From the IMG/VR virus record IMGVR_UViG_3300046740_000258, positions 1 through 36,224 of that record: DNA of 36,224 bases, one strand, 5' to 3'. Source of the stretch: a virus. The position numbers and the translations under genes were made by a program. This document shows, one piece after another, positions 3,704 through 23,699 of the stretch. The notes beneath the pieces are model-generated. The model saw only the letters and a program-made list of their open reading frames with translations. It did no database searches and was not told where the DNA came from. Numbering within the stretch: the stretch's first letter is position 1; each line of letters opens with the position of its first letter.

Positions 3704-3963
3704 CCATCTTCAAATACGCCATCGGCATCACGGAAGAGATCTCGATCCCTATGCCCGTCGGCGCGGAGATTCTTTGCGTCCAGGAACAGCGCGGCTTCCC
3801 GTGCATCTGGGCCCGCATCAACGAGCGGGCCGCGATGGCTCCCCGCGCATTCCAGTGGCGCGGCACCGGGCACCCGGCAGATGGGACGGGCCGCTACGTG
3901 GGCACGATCCAACTCGGCGCGCTCGTCTTTCACTTGTTCGAGGCGCCGACCGTTACCGCTTAG
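3700..3963 (+). CDS. Hypothetical beta-rich protein upstream of integrase
   Basis: An 87-residue protein from a GTG start overlapping the previous stop (GTGA). The sequence alternates hydrophobic strands (ISIPMPVGAEILCVQEQ, YVGTIQLGALVFHLFE), suggesting a compact all-beta fold. No family recognised. It ends 58 bases before the integrase ATG. Confidence 0.6.
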   Translation: MTIFKYAIGITEEISIPMPVGAEILCVQEQRGFPCIWARINERAAMAPRAFQWRGTGHPADGTGRYVGTIQLGALVFHLFEAPTVTA

Positions 3964-3969
3964 GTCGCA

Positions 3970-4017
3970 GAAGGACCCAACCGAAGGACCCCGCCCATGG
4001 GGGAATGGGCGAAAGGG
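3970..4017 (+). promoter_or_regulatory. Leader hairpin and repeat before integrase
   Basis: The 58-base gap before the integrase holds two direct copies of GAAGGACCC (3970-3978, 3983-3991) and an inverted repeat CGCCCAT (3992-3998) / ATGGGCG (4005-4011) with a 6-base loop. The hairpin abuts the ribosome binding site GAAAGGG (4011-4017) of the integrase, so it could modulate integrase translation (inference). Confidence 0.45.
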
Positions 4018-4021
4018 TGCC

Positions 4022-5062
4022 ATGGACCGACACAAGATCGAGGCGGCGCTTGCCGTACTCGGAGCGGAGTTGCGCGGCCTGGATGTGACGCGAGATAGCA
4101 CGTGTCAGACGGTCGGACAGGTCTACATGCGGTTCCGTCGGTCGCGCCCTCATGACCGCGCGTGGACGCTAGTGCGGGGCCTTCTGCGCCCGTTCGTCGT
4201 GCGCTACTGGCGTGAGCCCTGCGAGGCGATCGGCGTCTCGGCCTGGGACGCCCACCGGAAGCTACGAACAGCGGAGGTGACGCGGCTGGGGCGGCCTCCG
4301 TGCGGCGCCACGCTTAACCTGGAGCTCGCCCGGGCCAAGCAGCTGTTCAAGTGGGCCGTGTCCCGAGAATTGATCCGCGTGAACCCGCTCGAAGGCGCGA
4401 AGCGGGAGGCGGCCATCTCGGCCCGGGAGACGTGGCTCACCGCCGGCCAGGTGGACCAGCTGCTCTGCGCGGCCCGGGAGGATCCGTTCCTGACGGCGTG
4501 GATCCTCATCGCGGTGGGGACCGGCATGCGGATGGGGGAGATCATGTCCTTGCGGTGGGACCGCATCTCGCCGCTCGGGGTCGTGATCTTGAACGCGCGG
4601 AGCACGAAGACCCGGACCCGGCACGTCGTCGCGCTCCCGGCCTCGGCCCTGGCCGCCCTCGAAGCCCTCCCCAGATCCATCGGCTGCCCGTACGTGTTCA
4701 CCAACCCCTCGCGGGACCGCCGCTACAACCCCTGCACCATCCGCCGTTGGTTTCGGCGAGCTGCCGAAGATGCGGGTCTTGACGCGGTCGTGGCCGAGGG
4801 GGACGTGAAGCTTCTGTGCCACGATTGTCGCCATACGTTCGCTTCGATCGCCGACTCTCGCGGAGCCTCACCGACGGCGATCCGAGACGCCCTCAACCAC
4901 GCTTCGTTGGCGACCACCGCGCGCTACATGCACCGGGCGCGGGCGGACGGCGCGCTGGCCATGGCGCTGCTGATGGACCGACGCCCCGCGCAAAAAAGTG
5001 AACGGGTGGGCGCGCGAAAGCTTGACGTCTCGATTTCGACGGGAGTACAAAGATCATCGTGA
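4022..5062 (+). CDS. int: Tyrosine recombinase (phage integrase)
   Basis: A 346-residue site-specific recombinase for integration into the host chromosome. The core-binding domain covers about 25-130 and the catalytic domain about 135-310. Visible catalytic residues are R170 (GTGMRMGE), K196 (STKTRTRH), H267 and R270 (CHDCRH), H293 (LNHAS) and nucleophile Y302 (TARYMH), so the set is complete. The frame is open back to 3881, but ATG 4022 with GAAAGGG upstream gives a normal N terminus. The first 20 residues are short for an arm-binding domain. It lies inside the early operon and reads with it. A promoter-like sequence and a palindrome cluster sit at and after its 3' end, so attP may be there (inference). 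Confidence 0.93.
   Translation: MDRHKIEAALAVLGAELRGLDVTRDSTCQTVGQVYMRFRRSRPHDRAWTLVRGLLRPFVVRYWREPCEAIGVSAWDAHRKLRTAEVTRLGRPPCGATLNLELARAKQLFKWAVSRELIRVNPLEGAKREAAISARETWLTAGQVDQLLCAAREDPFLTAWILIAVGTGMRMGEIMSLRWDRISPLGVVILNARSTKTRTRHVVALPASALAALEALPRSIGCPYVFTNPSRDRRYNPCTIRRWFRRAAEDAGLDAVVAEGDVKLLCHDCRHTFASIADSRGASPTAIRDALNHASLATTARYMHRARADGALAMALLMDRRPAQKSERVGARKLDVSISTGVQRSS
5022..5051 (+). promoter_or_regulatory. Candidate promoter inside the integrase 3' end
   Basis: TTGACG (5022-5027) and TACAAA (5046-5051) are separated by 18 bases, a good sigma70-type match. Transcription would start in the palindrome cluster at 5059-5151 and drive the small-gene operon that begins at 5171. Confidence 0.45.
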
Positions 5063-19042: not shown

Positions 19043-20311
19043 ATGGCACTTCCAGGCATTTCCAATCAGGACTCGGATGCAGTCCTCCGCAAAACATACG
19101 CCAACTCGATCAAGTCGCTGCTCTACGGCGATGACTCTCGGTTCCTCCTCGGCGCGGTAAAGAAGACCGTCGGCGGGGGTGAGTCGTTCACCGTCCCGGT
19201 GGTGTACGGCGGGCAGCCGGGCCGGTCGAAGACCTTCGCGTCGGCGCTCGCGAACCGCGCGCTGTCCAAGAAGGTCAAGTTCTCGATGGACTGGACGGAG
19301 GATTTCGTTCAGGCGATCGTGAACAACTCCATGATCTCCCTCTCGAAGGGAGTCGGGGCGGCCGTCAACCTGAAGATTCAGGAGATCGCGTCTGCCACGG
19401 AGACGCTGGCCAACTCGATCGAGCACTCGCTCATTCGGTCGGGCTACAACGAGATCGGACAGATTCTGTCCATCACGGGCGGCTCCAACAACATCGTCAC
19501 CCTGGCCTCCCGCGGTGATGCGAACTTCGTCGACCCGGGCCAGTCCCATGTCGCCGCGGCTTCGCTGGCTGCGGCTTCGCTCCGCGCTCCGACGACCCCT
19601 CCTGTGGTGCAGTCGGTGGATCGCGACGCGGGGACCATCACCTACGTGGCTTCGGTCATCGGCGGCACGCCGTGGGCCGTGGGCGACTTCATCTTCCAGA
19701 CGGGCGACAAGATCGACGCGGGGACTCTGAGCTGCATCGGGCTCGGGGGCTGGTTCCCGCTGGTCGCTCCCTCGGGGATCGACGTCGGTGGCGTGGATCG
19801 CTCTGTTGCTCCGCAGGCCCTCGCGGGCGTGCGGGTCGACGGCCGTGGCAAGTCGGCCAAGGAAGCGGTGTTCGACCTCGTGACTCGGATCGGGGACGCC
19901 GGTGGTAAGGGCGATCTCGTCATCGCGACGAACGACTTCGTGGGCCGTCTCTGCAAGGAGATCGAGGGCGCGACCACGTACTACAAGATGCCCGCCCAGG
20001 ATGCGGATGGTCCCATCCCGGGGATCTTCTACGAGACCGTGCTCGTGAATGGCCCCAAGGGACCGTTCAAGGTCAAGGGCTCGCCCTACATGTACTCCGA
20101 CCGGATCTTCGGTCTGACCATGGACACACTGGAGATGCGCGTCGCCCCCGAGGGGACGAACAAGGACCCGATCTTCAACGGGACCTACAACAGCACCAAC
20201 AGCCCGATGATCGACGATCCGTCGACGGACTCGCAGATCGCCCGGCTCAAGGCGCTCTTCCTGTTCGTCTGCAATGCGCCGCAGAAAAACGGCGTGAGCC
20301 AGATCGCCTAA
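19043..20311 (+). CDS. Major capsid protein
   Basis: A 422-residue protein, the main shell subunit. It follows the scaffold by 15 bases with a good ribosome binding site, and has the composition of an HK97-fold subunit: few Cys, a central helix (SLSKGVGAAVNLKIQEIASATETLANSIEHSLIRSG), a loop region, and a C-terminal beta-rich P-domain (FGLTMDTLEMRVAPEG). Its N terminus is short, with no cleaved delta domain visible, consistent with a separate scaffold. Confidence 0.85.
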   Translation: MALPGISNQDSDAVLRKTYANSIKSLLYGDDSRFLLGAVKKTVGGGESFTVPVVYGGQPGRSKTFASALANRALSKKVKFSMDWTEDFVQAIVNNSMISLSKGVGAAVNLKIQEIASATETLANSIEHSLIRSGYNEIGQILSITGGSNNIVTLASRGDANFVDPGQSHVAAASLAAASLRAPTTPPVVQSVDRDAGTITYVASVIGGTPWAVGDFIFQTGDKIDAGTLSCIGLGGWFPLVAPSGIDVGGVDRSVAPQALAGVRVDGRGKSAKEAVFDLVTRIGDAGGKGDLVIATNDFVGRLCKEIEGATTYYKMPAQDADGPIPGIFYETVLVNGPKGPFKVKGSPYMYSDRIFGLTMDTLEMRVAPEGTNKDPIFNGTYNSTNSPMIDDPSTDSQIARLKALFLFVCNAPQKNGVSQIA

Positions 20312-20356
20312 CCCGCTCCGCTGGTCGCCGTCCTTCGGGGCGGCGGCTGGCGGGTC
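20311..20356 (+). other. Strong RNA hairpin with UUCG loop after capsid gene
   Basis: ACCCGC (20311-20316) pairs with GCGGGT (20350-20355), and the inner stem GCCGTCC (20327-20333) pairs with GGGCGGC (20338-20344) around a TTCG tetraloop. No T-run follows, so it is more likely an mRNA stabiliser or translation-level element after the highly expressed capsid gene than a terminator. Confidence 0.55.
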
Positions 20357-20371
20357 GAACCAGGAGAACCT

Positions 20372-20764
20372 ATGGCAATTTTCAGCTACGCAAACAAGGC
20401 CGCCGAAGCTGGCGTCAAGGATCTGTATCTCGCGGTTGCCATCGGGGCGGCTGGTGCGGTCGGAACCTTCACCCGTCAGCAAGGCTTCACTCGCTCGCCA
20501 GCCGCCGCAGTCCTGGGCACCGCGGGCGTCTATACCCTGAACCTCGATCAGCGCTGGCAGGGGCTCGTCGATGCTCAGGGGAAGATCATCGGGGCGGTTG
20601 CCGTCGCCGATGGCGTCCAGATGGAGGTCACCACGGTCACGCTGAACGCAGCGCAACCGCTGGTGGTCGTCACCTGGAGGAGAACCGACACGGGAGCCGC
20701 GGCGAACCCGCCCAACGGCTCGATCATGAACGTCCACCTGCAGCTCAAGGACAGCACCGTCTGA
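20372..20764 (+). CDS. Small structural protein after the capsid gene
   Basis: A 130-residue protein with AGGAGAA upstream. It is beta-rich (KDLYLAVAIGAAGAVGTFTRQQGF ... QMEVTTVTLNAAQPLVVVTWRR), the kind of sequence seen for head-decoration or capsid-stabilising proteins that follow capsid genes. The assignment is by position and composition only. Confidence 0.65.
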   Translation: MAIFSYANKAAEAGVKDLYLAVAIGAAGAVGTFTRQQGFTRSPAAAVLGTAGVYTLNLDQRWQGLVDAQGKIIGAVAVADGVQMEVTTVTLNAAQPLVVVTWRRTDTGAAANPPNGSIMNVHLQLKDSTV

Positions 20765-20979
20765 TGGCTGCCCCGCTGTACGAGAAGATCGGCAAATCCA
20801 TTGCCAAGGCGAAAGCTCCCGCCATGTCGATGGACGACGCCGAAGGTGCTCCCGACGACGCAGCCGAGGAATCGGACGAGTCGCCGGGGGCGAAGCTGGC
20901 CGAGGCGCTGGGCATCACTGACGCGGATACCGCGGCGGTCGACGAGGCTCTGGCGGCGGCTATCAGGAAGCTGAAGTGA
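20764..20979 (+). CDS. Small acidic protein
   Basis: A 71-residue protein with a basic start (KIGKSIAKAKAP), an acidic middle and a C-terminal helix. It starts by TGATG overlap and ends just before the terminator. No family recognised; probably a head accessory. Confidence 0.6.
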   Translation: MAAPLYEKIGKSIAKAKAPAMSMDDAEGAPDDAAEESDESPGAKLAEALGITDADTAAVDEALAAAIRKLK

Positions 20980-20983
20980 CATC

Positions 20984-21017
20984 CCGGGGCCGCGACTCAT
21001 AACCGCGGCCCCGGTTT
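20984..21017 (+). terminator. Rho-independent terminator after head genes
   Basis: CCGGGGCCGCG (20984-20994) and CGCGGCCCCGG (21004-21014) are perfect 11-base arms with a 9-base loop, followed by TTTCTC. It separates the head genes from the HNH/connector block; read-through or a downstream promoter must then supply the tail genes. Confidence 0.75.
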
Positions 21018-21020
21018 CTC

Positions 21021-21458
21021 ATGGCCAAATCCCTCACAAACTTGATTCTCCTCGCTCGGCAGTCCGCCGACATGGGGGTTACTGCGCGCTTTTGGTCAAA
21101 GGTCTGCGTCGCTGAGGATTCCGACGTCTGTTGGCCATGGCTTGCCTATCGGGACAAGGACGGTTACGGGATTTTCCGGCCCGTCGCTGGTCAGACAATG
21201 AAGCGCGCACCCCGTGTCGCCTGGGAGATGGCGAATGGTCGCATGCCGAAGGGCCTGGAGATCGACCATCTTTGCAAGAATCCCGCATGCGTGAATCCCG
21301 CACACCTCGAAGCGGTAACGCACGAGGAAAACATGCGACGGCGTGCGAAGCGGCGAGAGCCTGGAACGTTCTGCATCCGCGGCCATGAGTACACGCCAGA
21401 CAACGTGAAGGTGCGGGCGAGCGGGCGACGTAGCTGCCGAGCGTGCGAGAATGGCTAA
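21021..21458 (+). CDS. HNH homing-type endonuclease with connector-derived N terminus
   Basis: A 145-residue nuclease. Residues 80-97 hold the HNH core (LEIDHLCKNPACVNPAHLE; H83, N92, H95), followed by a zinc-type C118, H122, C139, C142 set (FCIRGHEYTPDN ... GRRSCRAC), as in HNH_3-type mobile nucleases. Residues 1-17 (MAKSLTNLILLARQSAD) are nearly identical to the start of the following connector protein but use different synonymous codons. The HNH domain then begins at about residue 18. It looks like a free-standing homing endonuclease inserted 18 codons into the connector gene. The stop overlaps the connector start (ATGGCTAA). Confidence 0.85.
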   Translation: MAKSLTNLILLARQSADMGVTARFWSKVCVAEDSDVCWPWLAYRDKDGYGIFRPVAGQTMKRAPRVAWEMANGRMPKGLEIDHLCKNPACVNPAHLEAVTHEENMRRRAKRREPGTFCIRGHEYTPDNVKVRASGRRSCRACENG

Positions 21459-22104
21459 GAGCCTTACACAGCTGATTCTGCTCGCTCGACAGTCGGCGGA
21501 TTTCGAAAATGACCCCCTCTGTGACGACACGGAGATCACGACCTATGTGAACGACGGGCTCCGAAAGCTCTATCTCGCTTACGTTAAGGTCTACACCGAC
21601 GCCTACATCCTTTCGCAGTCGTTCACGGTAGCGCCGGGAGCCACCACGGCGCCGCTGCCGGCCCTGTTCCTCAAGAGCCGTGGCGTCGACATCTTCTTTA
21701 ATTCGCGCTGGTCGCCGGTTCGCCATTTCACGTGGCGCGAGCGGGGCTCCTACCATTCGGGTCGGCGAGCTCACCGGGTCGACACCCTAATCCGCCTCGA
21801 TCCTGAGTTTCTCGACCTCTCGGGGAGCTATCGCATTTGGTACTACCCCACGGCTCCGGTCCTCGTGAACGGGACTGACGTCCTCGATGCGCTGATGGAT
21901 CAGTGGAGCGACTTCATCGTCGACTACGCGGCCTCCCGCATGCTGGTCAAGGCCAAGCTCGACCCCTCGGCCCAGTTCGGGAACATGAACGCCGTACTCG
22001 CGGCAATGAGCGAGGAGGCGCCTCGCCGAGATGACGAGCCCGACCAGGCGCCCGATGTCGACACCGACAGAGCGAGCATCGCAGATTCCGAATGGGGGCT
22101 CTGA
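21451..22104 (+). CDS. Head-tail connector (adaptor) protein
   Basis: A 217-residue protein that begins MAKSLTQLILLARQSADFENDPLCDDTEITTYVNDGLRKLY. An N-terminal helical bundle with 'D.EI..YVNDGLRKLY', a beta domain (SRWSPVRHF) and a C-terminal helix (DFIVDYAASRMLVK) are typical of short-tailed-phage adaptor proteins that dock on the portal. It starts inside the end of the HNH gene. Its start is recoded relative to the copy at 21021. Confidence 0.7.
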   Translation: MAKSLTQLILLARQSADFENDPLCDDTEITTYVNDGLRKLYLAYVKVYTDAYILSQSFTVAPGATTAPLPALFLKSRGVDIFFNSRWSPVRHFTWRERGSYHSGRRAHRVDTLIRLDPEFLDLSGSYRIWYYPTAPVLVNGTDVLDALMDQWSDFIVDYAASRMLVKAKLDPSAQFGNMNAVLAAMSEEAPRRDDEPDQAPDVDTDRASIADSEWGL

Positions 22105-23699
22105 TGGCGCTCACCCCCCAGAAGCCGCCCGCGAAGATCCTCCGGGTCCTCGGCCCCAAGGATCAGCCGACCTGGGAACGAGCCCTCGTCGGAATCTACG
22201 ACTACCTCGATGCGCTGACCTCGATGGCCTTCCAGCAGTCGGTCATCAACAACACCCCTGTTATCGTCACCGGCGGGGGCCCTGCGGGGCCCGCCATTGC
22301 GTCCCTTGGCGCCCCGGGGGCAGATGGGGCGGACGGCGAGGAGGGCTCTCTAGGCCCTCCCGGGGCCACTGGCAAGACCGGTATACAGGGTGTCGCAGGC
22401 CTCCCGGGCACGGTCGGCGCTCCGGGGACTGACGGCGAGGATGGCGACGAAGGGGCGCCAGGGGTTCCGGGCCTGACTGGCCCTCGAGGCCCAACGGGGA
22501 CCGCTGGATCGGCGGGGCCTCCTGGGACGGACGGCGAAGGCGAGAGCGATTCGTTCTATCCGACGGCGCCTTGGCTGGCGTGGCCCGCCGCCGGACAAGT
22601 CGTCTACTCCAACGGCACGGGGCCTATGGGGAATTTCAGCTTCACGTTCGACGACGTGAACCACGTTCTAACGCTCGCCTCTGCCGACACCAACACGATC
22701 TCCTTGAATCTCACCAGGGGAGGAGATCAATCGATCCAGAAGGCGGGTAGTGGAACCTTCTGGATCGGCACGCTGGGCGCGCAGTCTCTCAAGCTCTACA
22801 CCAACAATGTCGGCCGGCTGATCATCGATAGCTCGGGAAACGTCCAACTTGCGCATTACGGCGCCGGCGCGCTCCTGACCGATGCGAGCGGGAATGTCAC
22901 CGCGAACGCCTTCCCGACTGCGGGCCAAGTCCTCGTAAGTAGCGGGACCACCACGGCGCCCGTGGGGGATTCACTCTTCACCTTCAACGCCGCCGCGGAT
23001 GAGCAGCTCGTGATTGGGCCGACTGCGTTTCAAGCCTGGTACAACGCCACCGGCGCAAACTATGAGCGCGTGCGGGCGTTCTGGTCGGGGAACGTCTGGA
23101 ATCTCGTAAGCGAGAAGGGAGGCGTGGGGACCGTCCGTCAGCTCGCCATTGATGCAGGCACGGCCGACGCGACGGTGGCCGGCGGAAGGATCTTCCTTTC
23201 CACAACTGGACAAATAGGAATCCAGGGGGGGAGCGTCAACGTCGGGCTTGCAACACAGTTCACGAACTATACCGCCGCACAGATGGTCACGCTTTATCAA
23301 CCGGCCGTCGCGAGCGCGGCCGGCGCGACGCTGGACGCTGTCTACTGGGGCCTTGGCGCGGCGATTAGCGGCTCGACGAATATCACGACTGCGAGCGGAT
23401 TCAACGCCTTCACGATCCCGTCGCCATCCTATACGGGGAACGGATTCACGATCACAAATGCAGCCACCTTTACGGTGAAGGATGCCCCTAGCACATCCGG
23501 CAGCATGACCATCACGAACAAGTATGCCGTGTGGGTCCAGGCTGGCGGTACGCGGCTCGATGGAAACGTCGGCTTCTGCGGCGCGCAGCCTGCGGCCCGC
23601 CAGACGGTGACGGGGTCACGCGGAGGAAACGCCGCGCTCGCCTCACTGATCAGCGGCCTCGCGACTCAGGGCCTCATCGCGGATAGCACGACCCCATGA
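22104..23699 (+). CDS. Collagen-repeat fibre protein
   Basis: A 531-residue virion fibre. After a helical N terminus (1-55) it carries 26 uninterrupted Gly-X-Y triplets (about 69-146, for example GPPGATGKTG and GPRGPTGTAG), which form a collagen-like triple helix. A beta-rich shaft follows (150-440). The last 45 residues end in the pattern VGFCGAQP...TGSRGGNAALASLISGLATQGLI, a C-terminal trimerisation-like segment common in phage fibres. Proline is frequent in X and Y positions, which favours a stable helix. Probably attached to head or tail. It is coupled to the connector by TGATG. Confidence 0.8.
   Translation: MALTPQKPPAKILRVLGPKDQPTWERALVGIYDYLDALTSMAFQQSVINNTPVIVTGGGPAGPAIASLGAPGADGADGEEGSLGPPGATGKTGIQGVAGLPGTVGAPGTDGEDGDEGAPGVPGLTGPRGPTGTAGSAGPPGTDGEGESDSFYPTAPWLAWPAAGQVVYSNGTGPMGNFSFTFDDVNHVLTLASADTNTISLNLTRGGDQSIQKAGSGTFWIGTLGAQSLKLYTNNVGRLIIDSSGNVQLAHYGAGALLTDASGNVTANAFPTAGQVLVSSGTTTAPVGDSLFTFNAAADEQLVIGPTAFQAWYNATGANYERVRAFWSGNVWNLVSEKGGVGTVRQLAIDAGTADATVAGGRIFLSTTGQIGIQGGSVNVGLATQFTNYTAAQMVTLYQPAVASAAGATLDAVYWGLGAAISGSTNITTASGFNAFTIPSPSYTGNGFTITNAATFTVKDAPSTSGSMTITNKYAVWVQAGGTRLDGNVGFCGAQPAARQTVTGSRGGNAALASLISGLATQGLIADSTTP

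Follow-up and report, generated by a model that had tools for sequence, protein, structure and literature searches.

Why should a nuclease gene and the structural gene that follows it begin with the same 17 residues? The stretch of DNA analysed here, to which we refer as the window, comprises the 36,224 bases of a virus record and contains integrase, RecT, large terminase, portal and capsid genes, so the virus is probably a temperate tailed phage or a part of one. The upstream gene of the pair (21021..21458, plus strand) encodes an HNH_3 endonuclease of 145 residues (PF13392, E 2e-17; 62.9 bits as compared to the curated cut-off of 24.8) and its product starts with MAKSLTNLILLARQSAD, while the downstream gene (21451..22104, plus strand) encodes a head-tail adaptor, or connector, of 217 residues that starts with MAKSLTQLILLARQSAD. 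The match to HNH nucleases covers residues 19-143 of the upstream protein (phrog_826, E 1.6e-44) and residues 1-17 are an adaptor-type start. The two ORFs use different frames and have 8 nt in common, the TAA stop of the nuclease (21456-21458, plus strand) being found inside the first codons of the adaptor, within ATGGCTAAG. The nuclease has a tail of 3 residues after its C-terminal CxxC, as opposed to a median of 18 in 221 HNH proteins (3 or fewer in 2 out of 221), and it looks as if it had been trimmed to fit the adaptor start. A collagen-like, tail-fibre-type protein (22092-23699; PF01391 and PHROG tail families) is encoded directly 3' of the adaptor.

The initial annotation called the downstream protein a connector, and both profile and fold agree with this name. 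The protein matches the SU10_adaptor profile (PF24175, E 9.7e-9; 36.4 bits, cut-off 27). A structure was also predicted from an alignment of seven adaptors (mean pLDDT 75, pTM 0.69). It matches chains in the tail or portal-tail complexes of SU10, GP4, Pa223, KHP30 and A4, as well as the P1 connector, with TM values of 0.44-0.59. The best Foldseek match is 7z47_B, a chain of the phage SU10 tail (E 4.8e-6, TM 0.50, rmsd 11). The titles of these structures name only the complexes, and we take the matched chains to be the adaptors. The first helix of the model consists of residues 5-16 (block pLDDT 92), so the shared 17 residues correspond to that helix.

The two copies, located at 21021..21071 and 21451..21501 (both on the plus strand), share 16 of 17 residues (N versus Q at position 7) and 38 of 51 bases. 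The copies differ at 11 of the 17 codons, ten of them synonymously and one non-synonymously (AAC/CAG), so the shared residues and the ten synonymous codons reported in the initial annotation were exactly reproduced on recount. An independent direct-repeat search also recovers the copies, as a 50-nt repeat of 76% identity with a spacing of 430. It is conceivable that two similar short N-terminal helices arose by convergence or chance, given that the match is short and that some adjacent non-HNH genes also share their ends: among 5,674 adjacent non-HNH ORF pairs, three score at least 71 without wider similarity, one of these in start-to-start register. However, the window copies score 71 in start-to-start register, and non-cognate pairings of HNH N-ends with downstream gene starts reached a maximum of 46 in 6,191 pairings and of 50 in 2,344; the base identity given above also holds in register. 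Chance is thus largely refuted, and we consider it very improbable. When non-HNH ORFs of 100-260 residues were tested in the same way as the HNH ORFs (n=3,655), none reached a score of 70.

The pattern of substitutions is informative as to how the copies were used. In simulations with 13 neutral base changes, at most one amino-acid change was obtained in 0 out of 20,000 runs, and if one copy alone was left free to change, this outcome was seen in 0.3%, 0.9%, 2.7% and 8.3% of the runs for 7, 6, 5 and 4 changes, respectively. Taken with the ratio of 10 synonymous to 1 non-synonymous codons, the simulations argue that the copies most likely diverged as working adaptor starts; judging from these codons, the greater part of the divergence very likely arose while each of them had this role. 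Codon usage is the same for both copies, at the 4th percentile of the 17-codon stretches of the window genes. Q7 is found in the downstream copy and in 4 of the 6 aligned relatives, and N7 in the upstream copy; by this residue the downstream copy is more family-like than the upstream copy, which deviates from the family at position 7.

These data bear on a reading in which the adaptor gene was duplicated in tandem, a nuclease subsequently took the place of the first copy's body, and the remaining start drifted synonymously. The copies are indeed arranged head to tail in the same register, end-sharing neighbours occur among non-HNH genes, and two SU10_adaptor matches were found in 2 of the 50 records searched. 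A start that has lost its body is, however, free to change its residues, so that a 10:1 ratio is unlikely, though possible if few of the changes took place there. Moreover, no second adaptor is seen beside the first in the ORF lists of five HNH-free relatives (inspected by eye), and a tandem duplication does not predict the C-terminal mirror cases at HNH genes that are described below. We therefore regard the duplication as unlikely.

It could also be argued that the 17 residues serve the nuclease itself, as an expression signal, a leader or a contact, and that both copies are now under selection. This would be in line with residues that are conserved despite differing codons, and the nuclease begins where the adaptor start of the relatives lies. 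On the other hand, other HNH proteins do without this peptide: in the 40 matches listed of 2,128 records of named phages, the similarity does not begin before query residue 14. The shared peptide is a different one in the other cases, and the upstream copy is the one that departs from the family at position 7. We rate a function in the nuclease as quite unlikely. A degenerate DNA pattern for LILLARQSAD (arginine written as CGN) gave 0 matches in viral contigs, so neither this pattern nor the 40 matches revealed another HNH gene with this N-terminus; the initial annotation had named such genes, with no connector gene nearby, as a finding that would speak against its proposal.

The initial annotation further asked whether related phages without the nuclease have a matching connector start. 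A close relative of the window phage was not found in the collections searched, and neither was an empty allele at the DNA level. A tblastn search of 50,697 phage records with the adaptor gave no match at E 0.01 and one chance-level match at E 4; the first 46 residues of the adaptor gave one match (E 9), MCP and portal gave none, the adaptor of a distant relative (L159) gave none, and the terminase gave one weak match in a Thermus phage (E 3e-3). Single-protein scans with the adaptor, MCP and terminase in viral contigs, and with the adaptor in genome contigs, yielded no confirmed match. Distant relatives were reached through a neighbouring gene and then by alignment of the major capsid protein (MCP; 19043..20311, plus strand; phrog_9953, E 7.5e-4), which served as the synteny anchor. 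MCP relatives were detected by tblastn in L088, L159, L160 and L161, and by position and alignment only in L156.

In all five of the distant relatives whose gene order was read (20-29% identity in adaptor or MCP) the adaptor comes after a small gene and there is no HNH gene in between; the adaptors of these HNH-free relatives are only 20-25% identical to that of the window. The gene order is MCP, a protein of about 130 residues, one of 73-85 residues and the adaptor in G001 (L155), G002 (L156) and L159. L161 has the same order with one extra gene after MCP, the third protein having 73-100 residues across these four relatives, and L160 has a different set of small genes before the adaptor. The adaptor start lies between a 1-nt overlap with the small ORF and 79 nt after it in all five (the start in L160 is our choice), so that a nuclease would not fit in between. 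The small gene of the window (20764..20979, plus strand, 71 residues) resembles in size the gene that directly precedes the adaptor in the relatives, and it thus marks the left side of the insertion. The adaptor starts of the relatives, such as MAATLAQIRARSAKRANMDD and MITLTQLRNRCLSRADMANS, align with both window copies; the start that was asked for is therefore present, if in relatives of low identity, and the idea of an insertion survives this comparison.

As to the identity of these adaptors, PF24175 matches 4 of the 6 aligned relatives (L155, L160, L161 and L010). For the adaptors of L156 and L159, Pfam gave nothing at 0.01, and in the G002 record, to which L156 belongs, neither the window adaptor nor PF24175 found a match; these two adaptors were thus placed by position and alignment. 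SU10_adaptor matches lie about 2.7 kb apart in record G034 (L144/L153) and about 27 kb apart in record G020 (L140/L154). In the distant relative L010 (record G004) an HNH_3 gene at 3896-4432 is located directly 3' of an SU10-type adaptor and overlaps its end; this gene is absent from the gene-end copies listed below.

The reading that we favour, and hold to be fairly probable, is an insertion into a resident adaptor gene, directly behind codon 17, of an HNH gene to which a recoded adaptor start was already attached. The upstream copy would then be the resident start that now forms the N-terminus of the nuclease, and the downstream, recoded copy the imported start that now works for the adaptor. 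The entry point of this homing-type HNH_3 nuclease gene would lie where the first helix ends, and the process would have been one of asymmetric homing, i.e. a cut after codon 17 of the resident gene followed by repair from a donor. The donor may have been a related phage in which the nuclease gene already abutted that phage's own diverged adaptor start, its last codons overlapping the start codon. The right end of the insert would have been formed by a crossover within the homologous adaptor body, and the left end may have been joined where the cut is presumed, perhaps on an ATG that both sides shared. By these events the nuclease would have gained the resident 17-codon start as its terminus, and the adaptor would now begin with the imported one, which encodes the same peptide in another spelling. 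As the adaptor remains intact, the insertion would do little harm; a precise loss that leaves a good adaptor would be unlikely because the copies are only 75% alike in DNA. The recoding may likewise protect the insert from being cut again. The initial annotation placed the insertion about 18 codons into the gene and had the lost start replaced by a divergent copy; with the insertion at about 17 codons, this remains the best reading, while the cutting near codon 17, the horizontal origin of the second copy and the direction of the event, that is which copy was resident, are steps that we infer.

The left junction offers a candidate for the shared ATG. Residue 18 of the nuclease ORF is a methionine (21072..21074, plus strand), the nuclease similarity begins only at residue 19, and a methionine is aligned at position 18 in two relatives, G001 (L155) and L159; the junction ATG may thus be either the original nuclease start or codon 18 of the resident adaptor. 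Upstream of the nuclease there is a hairpin (20984..21014, plus strand) with an 11-bp G+C stem and a 9-nt loop that ends 6 nt before the ATG at 21021 (RNA fold -28.8 kcal/mol, z -5.0). A terminator scan found no terminator-like site at the hairpin, and no ribosome site was seen by eye between the hairpin and the nuclease ATG.

HNH genes do ride in introns and inteins, and the insert might accordingly be one of these, with the second copy as a part of it. However, no Rfam family was detected at E values up to 1 over 20300-22300, and the region does not qualify as a group I or group II intron. The nuclease ORF fills the insert, it is in another frame than the adaptor and it has its own stop, so there is no intein. 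An intron or intein is extremely unlikely here.

If an insertion of this kind took place at one adaptor gene, similar traces might be expected beside other nucleases. HNH relatives were gathered from viral contigs, from genome contigs and from further matches in the same records. The 414 sequences contain 264 distinct HNH ORFs; a candidate downstream gene was available for 249 of them and a candidate upstream gene for 230. The wider genome sampling for HNH genes covered 3 of the 274 genomes of one class. At the N-end, copies of the next gene with scores of at least 45 were observed three times versus 0.12 expected from shuffled neighbours (the window, 71; L293/L323, 49; L252, 46), and C-end copies of the previous gene at scores of at least 40 were observed four times versus 0.00 expected (L242, 105; L199, 71; L163, 44; L166, 43). 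L303/L326 has a score of 39 in register (p 0.0016), and a fourth N match of at least 40, in L231, is of low complexity but remains counted. In an earlier run of 205 HNH ORFs, shuffled N scores went up to 50, which means that L293 and L252 do not lie beyond all shuffles. The nuclease and its neighbour overlap by 1-17 nt in 7 of the 8 cases and are 2 nt apart in L163, with start codons chosen by us.

The individual cases differ in quality. In L242 the last 29 residues of the previous gene recur at the C-terminus of the nuclease (21 of 29 alike), which is also found by tblastn (E 1e-6), and the nuclease is the best-scoring HNH relative in the scan of genome contigs (49% identity, residues 17-143). 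A homolog of this previous gene in L180 aligns over residues 16-156 of 160 (36.7%), and the sole HNH ORF of the L180 locus lies elsewhere, upstream. L199 shares 12 out of 12 residues with 7 synonymous and 0 non-synonymous codons. The gene next to the nuclease in L293 is a RusA gene (PF05866, E 4e-35); the HNH protein starts with MNINFTIPGTPVAKG and the RusA protein with MMISFTIPGAVVGKG, and the shared stretch is a RusA start as in the RusA-like genes of L091 and L109. The ratios of synonymous to non-synonymous codons are 8:5 in L293, 7:7 in L252 and 4:4 in L303 on the N side, and 14:8 in L242, 3:10 in L163 and 6:2 in L166 on the C side. The window, L242 and L199 each hold up individually; L252, L163 and L303 are weak candidates.

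Several other searches and candidates should be mentioned. Fifteen HNH ORFs of 12 named phages contained no credible gene-end copy, the top N score of 39 being due to an Arg-rich stretch, and a first scan of 52 HNH ORFs, restricted to N-ends, showed no further case besides an HNH-HNH pair in one locus. L287, L217, L302 and others had high raw scores that came from Arg/Gly-rich frames, and they were removed by the complexity filter. L009 was excluded as it pairs two HNH genes; its virus record (G375, 127,992 bases) contains nine matches to this HNH family. L316 was set aside by eye for a helix-turn-helix-like stretch. A single gene seems to be divided by an HNH gene at L186 (2369-4949): ..RPAMPGAAEPVA is the end of the upstream ORF, ..RPAMPL that of the HNH ORF, and another frame continues downstream; the divided gene is primase/polymerase-like as judged by eye. 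Short tandem ORFs that share their ends (scores 93-127) are present at L169 (1316-1995), with no recognised HNH gene among them.

End-sharing neighbours also occur among other genes, and the frequency beside HNH genes was compared with two controls. The looser control consists of adjacent non-HNH ORF pairs, with one neighbour per pair and shorter ORFs than in the HNH test; L242 and L199 were taken out of it, which lowered its C cases from 18 to 16. At scores of at least 40 without wider similarity this control gives 23 N cases in 5,674 and 16 C cases in 5,672, as compared to 4 in 249 and 4 in 230 for the HNH set. The pooled counts are 8/479 versus 39/11346 (odds ratio 4.9, p 5e-4; p 0.0023 if L231 is left out), and the individual ends give p 0.025 for N alone, 0.007 for C alone and 0.09 for C at scores of at least 45. 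The stricter control, built like the HNH test from non-HNH ORFs of 100-260 residues, gives 20 N cases in 3,655 and 11 C cases in 3,481, i.e. 8/479 versus 31/7136 in the pooled comparison (odds ratio 3.9, p 0.0025; odds ratio 3.4, p 0.0086 without L231). Here the N-ends alone are not significant (p 0.06, or 0.18 without L231) and the C-ends have p 0.011. The cut-offs of 40, 45 and 70 were chosen after the scores had been seen, and with the post hoc cut-off of 70 three HNH cases (the window, L242 and L199) out of 479 stand against 0 of 7,136 in the stricter control (p 2.5e-4) and, with the same post hoc cut-off, 5 of 11,346 in the looser one (p 0.003).

The enrichment is thus moderate, and it suggests that the arrangement in the window is probably not a one-off. 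A general tendency of HNH genes to copy gene ends is probable for C-ends and may extend to N-ends, and there is moderate evidence that the gene-end swap recurs beside some other HNH_3 genes, at gene starts as well as at gene ends. Gene-end copies lie beside a few percent of the nucleases examined in viral and bacterial sequences, which suggests one route by which such genes may settle into genes that are needed.

We speculate further, with less than even confidence, that phage HNH_3 nucleases regularly establish themselves within essential genes by swapping gene ends: the nuclease would carry a recoded first or last stretch of its target and make the resident end its own terminus, and would hence cause no harm, escape its own cutting and be difficult to lose. 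In the usual view, free-standing nuclease genes settle between genes, or hide in introns or inteins within coding sequence. A nuclease with a spare, differently spelled gene end could instead occupy an essential gene without splicing. If so, the target gene would come to depend on the element through the recoded end, and repeated swaps would pass gene ends from phage to phage, which would explain some of the mosaic gene ends of phages. The signature, a gene end copied at a nuclease with mostly synonymous divergence, can be searched for in any genome. The homing step can be tested directly with one nuclease and one empty gene.

It is instructive to compare this locus with known systems. Integrative elements that restore their target gene are known, e.g. 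phage 21 and e14 in icd. They resemble the window in that the interrupted gene receives a recoded end from the element; however, they use an integrase and an attachment site, whereas in the window a nuclease is fused to the old end.

Among phages, free-standing HNH insertions beside lysA are described in Cluster J mycobacteriophages (Courthouse gp46 and Omega gp51), and that of Omega gp51 is associated with a new 3' end of lysin A and the loss of 35 bp of the presumed target (PMC3706429). Cluster J and the window thus share an HNH insertion in a phage, but the HNH section of that paper describes no copied gene end on the nuclease. ICP1 carries homing endonuclease genes close to or within essential genes, at the boundaries of exchanged segments (PMC10448857), a position similar to that of the window nuclease, though the passages on these ICP1 genes are without a gene-end copy. 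The initial annotation knew of no such case at a phage connector start; within the open-access literature searched, we found no description of a copied gene end for phages generally.

The closest parallel is found in fungal mitochondria. The initial annotation pointed to in-frame mobile nucleases that replace a gene end in Allomyces atp6, and the passages on these elements support this: mobile nuclease ORFs with a foreign carboxy-terminal end are described in atp6, atp9, cox2 and nad3 of Glomus sp. mitochondria, the same signature is cited there from earlier work on Allomyces macrogynus atp6, and the two atp6 ends of Glomus are 63.5% alike in DNA and 91% in protein (PMC3630166). C-terminal duplications of cob and atp6 near nuclease ORFs are described as well (PMC6279837). 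As in these systems, the window has a nuclease ORF at a gene end, fused in frame to a copy of that end (residues 1-17), and a gene with a second, presumably foreign end that is alike in protein (16/17) and diverged in DNA (38/51). The mitochondrial cases in these passages involve only carboxy-terminal ends, with a LAGLIDADG nuclease in atp6, while the window has a copy of an amino-terminal end and an HNH_3 nuclease; C-terminal copies like the fungal ones are found not in the window but in the other records (L242, L199, L163 and L166). On this comparison of sequences, the arrangement is best read as a form of the known mitochondrial nuclease ORFs that carry a gene end, the new elements being a 5' end, a phage and an HNH nuclease.
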